Assembly (NCBI GenBank): GCA_009785425.1
Contig: WQWI01000008.1
Location: 1-64,000, forward strand
Direction of reading: 5' to 3'
Origin: Bacteroidales bacterium
GTDB lineage: Bacteria > Bacteroidota > Bacteroidia > Bacteroidales > P3
Length of the DNA: 64,000 bases
The position numbers and the translations under genes were made by a program. A model generated the notes under the pieces. That model ran no database searches. It saw only the letters and a list, made by a program, of their open reading frames with translations, and was not told the origin of the DNA. Below, piece by piece: positions 8,254-10,148 of this stretch. Position 1 is the first letter of the stretch, and the number at the start of each line of letters is the position of its first letter.

Positions 8254-8273
8254 TCAAAAAACCTAAAGATAAA

Positions 8274-8305
8274 TTTGCTAAATTCAAAAAAATGTTGTAA
8301 CTTTG
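8274..8305 (+). promoter_or_regulatory. Promoter of the structured RNA
   Basis: TTTG (8274-8277), 20 bp, TAACTTTG (8298-8305), a full match to the Bacteroidota consensus, with no plus-strand ORF behind it. Confidence 0.75.
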
Positions 8306-8308
8306 TGG

Positions 8309-8463
8309 GGCTGAAAGGAACTTGTTTTAAGTTTACCCGCGATTAGCACAGACGACGAATTTTCACTGTGACTAACACTAAGAGGACGGTCAAAGCGTCG
8401 AAAATTGACTCCAGAAGGTTGGTGGCCCTTTTGCTCTGAACAAGTTCCTTTCAGTCTTTTTTC
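8309..8463 (+). ncRNA. Small structured RNA, possibly 6S-like
   Basis: About 155 nt. A good promoter ends at 8305. A 16-bp perfect terminal stem joins 8311-8326 (CTGAAAGGAACTTGTT) to 8439-8454, and a U run (8457-8462) follows at once, giving a defined 3' end. The interior is not coding on the plus strand and contains a further inner pairing (AATTTTC with GAAAATT). Size, a long closing stem around a large internal region, and a private promoter resemble 6S RNA, but I see no sequence signature that proves this; the SRP RNA and tmRNA hallmarks are absent. The 3' end overlaps the stop of the convergent BECR-like gene by a few bases. Confidence 0.6.
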
Positions 8464-8900
8464 CAAAGTAAATTTTCGTTTTTGAAGTATTTTTTGTCCC
8501 TTGTAAACGCTGTTTTTATCTCATAAAAACCTGCTTTAAAAGCAAAATTTAACTCTATAACTGTTACTTTTGGAACACAGTTCCAATGTACTAAAAAAAA
8601 TGATTGTCGACCTTCCTGCTTATAAATCCGATTAAATTTATCTATTACCAAATCAACGAACATTAGCGGAGTTAGTCCAAGTTTTGCTAATTCGTCTTTG
8701 TGTCGATTAAAGATGTGTTTAATGTGACTGTCGTCAATGTAGATGTCTGCTGGGGTTTTACCGATTGCTCTAGCAATAGGGCTGCGTAAGCGACCGATTT
8801 TTCTATACTGCCTTTGATATTCAATTCGAGAGCTACCTGCTGTTGTTTTCTTTTTCATGTCGTGTTTTATTTTTAGTAGATAATTTGTTTTTGCGTTCAT
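8451..8900 (-). CDS. BECR-fold (barnase/EndoU/colicin/RelE-like) nuclease-type protein
   Basis: A 149-aa basic protein starting 7 nt downstream of dprA, so probably expressed from the dprA transcript. The central part (DIYIDDSHIKHIFNRHKDEL, then a helix and IYKQEGRQSFFLVHWN strands) resembles the phage barnase-EndoU-colicin E5/D-RelE-like group found in toxins and phage proteins: a helix with HIxHIxxRH-type residues followed by a beta sheet. The fold call rests on pattern only. No obvious antitoxin gene adjoins it. The start could be 8900 or the internal ATG at 8858 (MKKKTTAGSS). The last codons lie in the arm of the convergent RNA's terminal stem. Confidence 0.6.
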   Translation of the reverse strand: MNAKTNYLLKIKHDMKKKTTAGSSRIEYQRQYRKIGRLRSPIARAIGKTPADIYIDDSHIKHIFNRHKDELAKLGLTPLMFVDLVIDKFNRIYKQEGRQSFFLVHWNCVPKVTVIELNFAFKAGFYEIKTAFTRDKKYFKNENLLWKKD

Positions 8901-8907
8901 TTATGTA

Positions 8908-10029: not shown

Positions 10030-10148
10030 ACCCTATATAACGCAAAAAAGTCGTTTTTCGTATAAAAAATTCCTTAAAAAATGTTAAAATGTTGATAACT
10101 TTCTGAAATTGTTAATAAGCTTGGTGAAAAAATATCATTTTTTTTTCG

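Follow-up and report, generated by a model that had tools for sequence, protein, structure and literature searches.

A structured RNA gene convergent with a predicted PBECR3-like RNase gene: a probable type-III-like toxin-antitoxin module in Bacteroidales

What does the small element that follows murB in this Bacteroidales genome encode, and with what does it work? The window (the whole stretch of DNA analyzed, 64,000 nucleotides of contig WQWI01000008.1) had been examined before in a sequence-only reading, which reported at this site a complete promoter, a perfect 16-bp closing stem, and a U run that together define about 155 nt with no ORF on that strand. Each of these features was recovered here, at the same coordinates. 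The plus-strand promoter (8274-8305) is of the Bacteroidota type and consists of TTTG at 8274-8277, a 20-bp spacer, and TAACTTTG at 8298-8305. Behind it lies a predicted antitoxin RNA of ~156 nt (8307-8462, plus strand). Its closing helix, P1, is formed by 16 uninterrupted pairs between a 5' arm at 8311-8326 and a 3' arm at 8439-8454, and a terminator-like run of six U residues (8457-8462, plus strand) follows 3' of P1. The RNA is predicted to be non-coding, with no plus-strand ORF of at least 40 aa and no ATG inside 8307-8462. A search of the RNA region of the window against Rfam 15 gave no match at the gathering score, in support of the earlier proposal that the RNA is undescribed. At E ≤ 10, it returned only sub-threshold chance matches to eukaryotic families, outside the RNA span. 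The RNAs at 38 relatives' loci likewise had no Rfam match. The small RNA and its coordinates therefore stand as first read. The 6S role suggested for it does not, as discussed below, and the likely role of the convergent ORF at 8451-8858 as its functional partner had been missed.

This ORF (8451-8858, minus strand; start in the ORF list at 8900) lies tail-to-tail with the RNA, and the U run is complementary to its last Lys codons. Its 135-aa product is a predicted toxin. Pfam returned PBECR3 only (E=2e-4), at 21.7 bits, which is under the 30-bit cut-off. Proteins with the same genomic arrangement pass Pfam, with 57 bits for PBECR3, 64 bits for PBECR1, and 66 bits for LPD3. Residues H48, H53, N76, and T116 are invariant in 15 homologues. 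In the work of Iyer et al. (2017, PMC5512222), the PBECR active site is described as a His of the N-terminal helix with a C-terminal Thr/Ser, and H48/H53 and T116 of the window protein agree with that description. An AlphaFold2 model (pLDDT 86.6) was compared with the PDB using Foldseek. The two best matches were toxins of toxin-antitoxin systems, 7vd7 and the RNase toxin BrnT (3u97), with weak E-values (best 0.077), and the top ten also included PfiAT and RelE at modest E-values. No homology to ToxN, CptN, TenpN, or AbiF was found by Pfam, which gave only PBECR3, or by PADLOC, which has no family for this protein; NCBIfam gave one 16-bit match, far under its cut-off. On the basis of fold and motif, we predict that the protein is a small soluble BECR/RelE-fold endoribonuclease of PBECR3-like type. 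No homologues of it were found in phage records.

The RNA and the predicted toxin gene are closely linked within the genus. Searching 61 genomes at the DNA level, we found full-length RNA copies in the four nearest ones. These copies sit between unrelated housekeeping genes, and all but one converge with an ORF of ~133 aa that resembles 8451-8858. A covariance model (R1), which spans 11 copies, retrieved exactly 11 RNAs from the 61 family genomes, confined to the same four genomes, and all RNA homologues are preceded by a promoter of the same type as that of the window RNA. A protein profile (A2) identified 10 toxin genes in four of the five genus genomes and also picked up divergent relatives from another genus in the family. 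The RNA adjoins all 10 genes of the window toxin family, and the toxin accompanies 10 of the 11 RNAs, in genomic locations that are unrelated to each other; most of the genomes are drafts assembled from uncultured bacteria.

Inside P1, whose arms are ~110 nt apart, three further plus-strand hairpins are predicted. P2 (8343-8375) pairs TTAGCACAG with CTGTG-A-CTAA and has the loop CGACG at 8353-8357. P3 (8389-8409) pairs GTCAA with TTGAC, and its loop, CGTCG at 8396-8400, is the complement of the P2 loop. P4 (8412-8433) pairs CAGAAGG with CCTTTTG. The window RNA has a minimum free energy of -50.3 kcal/mol (z = -3.1), and one of 200 shuffles folds equally well. The opposite strand of the region also folds well (z = -3.7), because any perfect inverted repeat would do so. 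Across the homologues, G-U occupies 26 cells and A-C 8, and this excess points to structural constraint on the plus strand, the strand chosen in the first reading.

We then measured covariation in an alignment of 11 copies with 35 pairs in four helices. The alignment is model-based and fitted to the structure, hence favoring it, and 89.9% of its cells are paired, against 53% at best when the partners are slid by one column. Compensatory changes in relatives, which had been proposed as a check on the RNA, were found: two-sided changes occur at 17 pairs, compared with a mean of 9.5 in shuffles, and covariation scores 0.378, compared with 0.205. Both values lie beyond those of all 500 shuffles. 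Seven P1 pairs and five P2 pairs have changed on both sides, with 79% of P2 cells paired. The structure of the RNA is under selection and is not due to chance. The P2 and P3 loops occur as CGACG/CGUCG or CUACG/CGUAG, depending on the copy, a covariation at one position only. That position changes in step in every alignable toxin-linked copy, and a mismatch is seen only in the toxin-less copy G003:C65. A kissing pseudoknot between P2 and P3 inside the closing stem is predicted from this complementarity, which covaries at the single position. One RNA copy (L128:1501-1673, G003:C144) is ~20 nt longer and has an apparent internal duplication before P2.

The locus is a mobile two-gene module that was inserted as a unit. 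In the window, toxin and RNA together occupy 8254-8907, exactly between the stop codons of murB and dprA. Two relatives, G001 (L130) and G004 (L131), have empty sites at which murB and dprA are directly tail-to-tail, and therefore the pair was inserted as one piece. Decay of the modules was also visible. The RNA gene has been kept at three loci where the toxin is deleted (G003:C65), frameshifted (L067), or truncated (L066). At the first of these (L035:812-1019), nothing is left of the toxin gene but its promoter element and final codons (LWKKD). The RNA there is intact in outline, and its P2/P3 loop pairing has decayed. At L067:2114-2517 (G002:C1), the RNA gene is present and a PBECR1 toxin is frameshifted near an A-rich run, which could be decay, phase variation, or an assembly error. 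Among the small solo genes of this sample, the RNA promoter is absent only at a divergent LPD3 gene (L107). Retention of the RNA after loss of the toxin is the pattern usually seen with antitoxins.

The toxin genes have a promoter-like element of their own. TATACGAAA-N-GCGTTATA lies directly upstream of most solo toxin genes in the genus, and it also precedes dprA in three genomes, including that of the window (10036-10064, minus strand; TATACGAAAAACGACTTTTTTGCGTTATA). In the form TATACGAAA-N(6-16)-GCGTTWTA, it has 106 matches in the five genus genomes and none in the reversed control. Other genes behind the element encode KilA-N, ORF6N, Bro-N, RhuM, and DUF2851 proteins and a response regulator, and the element possibly marks a competence or stress regulon. 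The window toxin has no element of its own and lies ~50 bp behind dprA. Judging from this arrangement, it is probably read through from the dprA promoter element.

The pairing of such toxins with a convergent RNA extends well beyond the window family. We searched Bacteroidales with Pfam models PF18812, PF18809, and PF18798 alone, so that the RNA played no part in the selection. Small ORFs were those of no more than 220 aa whose stop is followed by at least 150 bp of sequence, and a promoter was scored where TAnnTTTG lies 40-180 bp downstream of the stop, on the opposite strand. A convergent promoter was present at 30 of 31 small PBECR1, PBECR3, or LPD3 genes, with a TTG box as well at 27. In an overlapping set, it was present at 38/39 module ORFs versus 4/87 unrelated control ORFs of the same loci. 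The kind of RNA varies with the toxin, each toxin family having its own. Two tandem hairpin units occur in two of the LPD3-linked RNAs, at L099:1889-1962 (units of 27 nt) and L117:1930-2026 (units of 46 nt), and the stems of the L117 units differ by compensatory changes. The related RNAs at L143 and L157 have one unit each. The AlphaFold2 model of LPD3 has a pLDDT of 73, and its Foldseek matches were uninformative as to a BECR fold; one protein has overlapping matches to the LPD3, PBECR2, and PBECR3 models.

The arrangement is also found at several larger proteins that end in PBECR-type or LPD3 domains, namely Mu-type portal/MuF head proteins and one ArdC-zincin protein. The latter (L076) is a polyvalent protein with a C-terminal PBECR3 near the window family, and it has a convergent promoter and RNA. 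As a test of prediction, we searched for PF18810 (PBECR2) and obtained eight matches in Mu-like head proteins, three of them already met in the PBECR3 search. In seven of the eight, the portal/MuF gene ending in PBECR2 faces a convergent promoter at 40-180 bp that reads into a stem-closed RNA; at the eighth, a promoter-like box lies ~200 bp out. PBECR2 matches outside Mu-like head proteins mostly have no convergent promoter. The head-gene loci (L166-L173) belong to Mu-like prophages in several Bacteroidales families. Solo, head-protein, and polyvalent forms all come with an RNA, so the RNA follows the nuclease domain and not the gene context. A PBECR1 relative had no plasmid match and 112 matches in phage records, and the two examined were the C-terminal ends of giant proteins. 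In the search of Bacteroidota outside the Bacteroidales, PBECR1 was found in one of 396 sampled genomes, the window's own. This 1.6-Mb genome contains at least 12 modules, as counted from the searches.

We consider it fairly likely that the RNA and the RNase form a mobile toxin-antitoxin module, in which a type-III-like RNA antitoxin folds into a protein-binding shape and neutralizes the RNase. This interpretation draws on the linkage in both directions (10/10 and 10/11), the Pfam-only result (30/31), and the way the RNA tracks the toxin domain. It also draws on the selection on RNA structure, the fold of the partner, the asymmetric decay, the insertion as a unit, the lack of an antisense signal to the 5' part of the toxin mRNA, and the two LPD3 RNAs with tandem units. 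In the proposed mechanism, the minus-strand gene would encode a small BECR/RelE-fold endoribonuclease (PBECR3-like), and the plus-strand gene, with its own strong promoter, would yield an abundant structured RNA. In this RNA, the closing stem would enclose three hairpins, two of them apparently kissing through their loops. The RNA would bind the RNase directly and block it, as ToxI does with ToxN. If the supply of RNA fell, or if the protein entered a cell that has no such RNA, the RNase would be free to cut cellular RNA. The antitoxin would be a single folded unit from a separate convergent transcript, as opposed to repeats in the toxin's own leader.

A type-I-like reading, in which the convergent RNA acts as a cis-antisense RNA that pairs with read-through 3' ends of the toxin mRNA and lowers toxin synthesis, appears unlikely. 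The two genes do converge, the U run of the RNA overlaps the last toxin codons, and toxin mRNA that extended beyond the stop codon would have full complementarity to the RNA. However, antisense pairing needs no conserved fold, whereas compensatory changes have maintained the four helices of this RNA, with G-U pairs on one strand. The kind of RNA differs from one toxin family to the next, and there is no excess complementarity to the 5' part of the cognate mRNA: duplexes predicted between the RNA and that part were no stronger for cognate pairs than for non-cognate or shuffled ones. Antisense action at the toxin start region was rejected on this lack of signal. Antisense control is less likely, though conceivable through the 3' overlap, because it is the fold of the RNA, not its complementarity, that is conserved, and because 5' complementarity is lacking. 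Type I systems with a convergent antisense RNA share with this locus an RNA that overlaps the toxin 3' end. Their toxins are usually small hydrophobic peptides, in contrast to the 135-aa predicted soluble RNase found here, and the structural selection on the RNA and the absence of 5' complementarity set the locus further apart.

It is quite unlikely that the two products form a functional ribonucleoprotein, in which the RNA, serving as cofactor, guide, or scaffold, would activate or direct the nuclease and not inhibit it. A structured RNA and a nuclease would co-occur just as strictly in that case, but no variable guide-like segment is evident among the 11 RNA copies, and the same arrangement recurs where the domain lies inside unrelated large proteins. 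A cofactor or guide role is disfavored because RNA genes outlive toxins, at three loci, as expected of an antitoxin and not of a cofactor.

Very improbable is the view that the element is only a terminator or an inverted repeat between convergent genes. It fits the perfect inverted repeat, the U run, and the folding of both strands, but not the long segment between the stem arms or the strict promoter in front. The conserved internal fold and the absence of the element from the empty murB-dprA junctions of relatives led us to reject a bare terminator.

That the RNA is 6S-like or another housekeeping regulatory RNA, adjoining murB by chance, is scarcely credible: its size, long closing stem, and strong promoter would suit such a role, but no Rfam family matches it, it occurs in 0-4 copies per genome, and it always lies beside a toxin gene or its scar. 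The covariance search against 6S models proposed earlier gave no match of the window RNA to any Rfam 6S-type model, at the gathering score or at E ≤ 10. The RNA is present in 4/61 family genomes (1-4 copies each) and absent from 57, and its covarying P1 encloses three hairpins, as opposed to a single rod with a central open-complex-like bubble. On these grounds, 6S RNA was rejected. The window RNA resembles 6S RNA, Bacteroidales-1, and 6S-Flavo in length and long closing stem, and differs from them in fold, copy number, distribution, and context. Rfam Bacteroidales-1 (RF01693), probably the Bacteroides 6S RNA, had no match anywhere in the five genus genomes.

The closest known counterparts of the module proposed here are type III toxin-antitoxin systems (ToxIN, CptIN, TenpIN, and AbiF/RCd22). 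They share with it a structured RNA, with hairpins or, as predicted here, a pseudoknot, that is paired with a ribonuclease toxin, also predicted here, and a promoter and terminator for the RNA. In two tandem units, the likeness extends to the LPD3-linked RNAs of L099 and L117 only, the window RNA being a single unit. As described in PMC4627078 and PMC12373285, type III RNAs are repeats upstream on the same strand, co-transcribed with ToxN or AbiF toxins, whereas the RNA here is convergent and separately promoted. Type III RNAs usually consist of repeats, and here one complex unit is usual; type III toxins are ToxN/AbiQ or AbiF, and here they are BECR/RelE-like PBECR families. We do not file the window system as a type III member because it does not have the layout that defines that type, although by analogy it probably works like one.

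The second point of comparison is the set of PBECR domains of polyvalent proteins (PMC5512222). In that paper, the toxin domain family, the His plus Thr/Ser active site, the solo and fused forms, and the MuF fusions correspond to what we found, and the window subfamily differs in being sub-threshold in Pfam. The term 'noncoding RNA' was not found in the paper, and apparently no RNA partner of PBECR is described in it. The open-access papers searched contained no account of RNA genes that pair with PBECR or LPD3.

More tentatively, and possible rather than probable, these may be immunity RNAs for a superfamily of BECR nuclease domains that serve as weapons of Bacteroidales phages and conjugative elements. 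The RNA would shield the producer cell and stay behind, so that the nuclease would be active in the next cell. Solo copies would be domesticated modules, several of them under the dprA promoter element, forming an RNA-gated toxin arsenal.

To our knowledge, only a few toxin folds are known to be countered by RNA antitoxins that target the protein. If the toxin-antitoxin interpretation is true, it would add a new class, in which nucleases of RelE/BECR type, which proteins neutralize elsewhere, have as partners many structured RNAs unrelated to one another. The class would hold at least in Bacteroidales, with many copies per genome. PBECR1-3 and LPD3, known so far only as protein domains of phages and conjugative elements, would gain a testable partner, and RNA-based self-protection would be predicted for phage head proteins that bear a nuclease.
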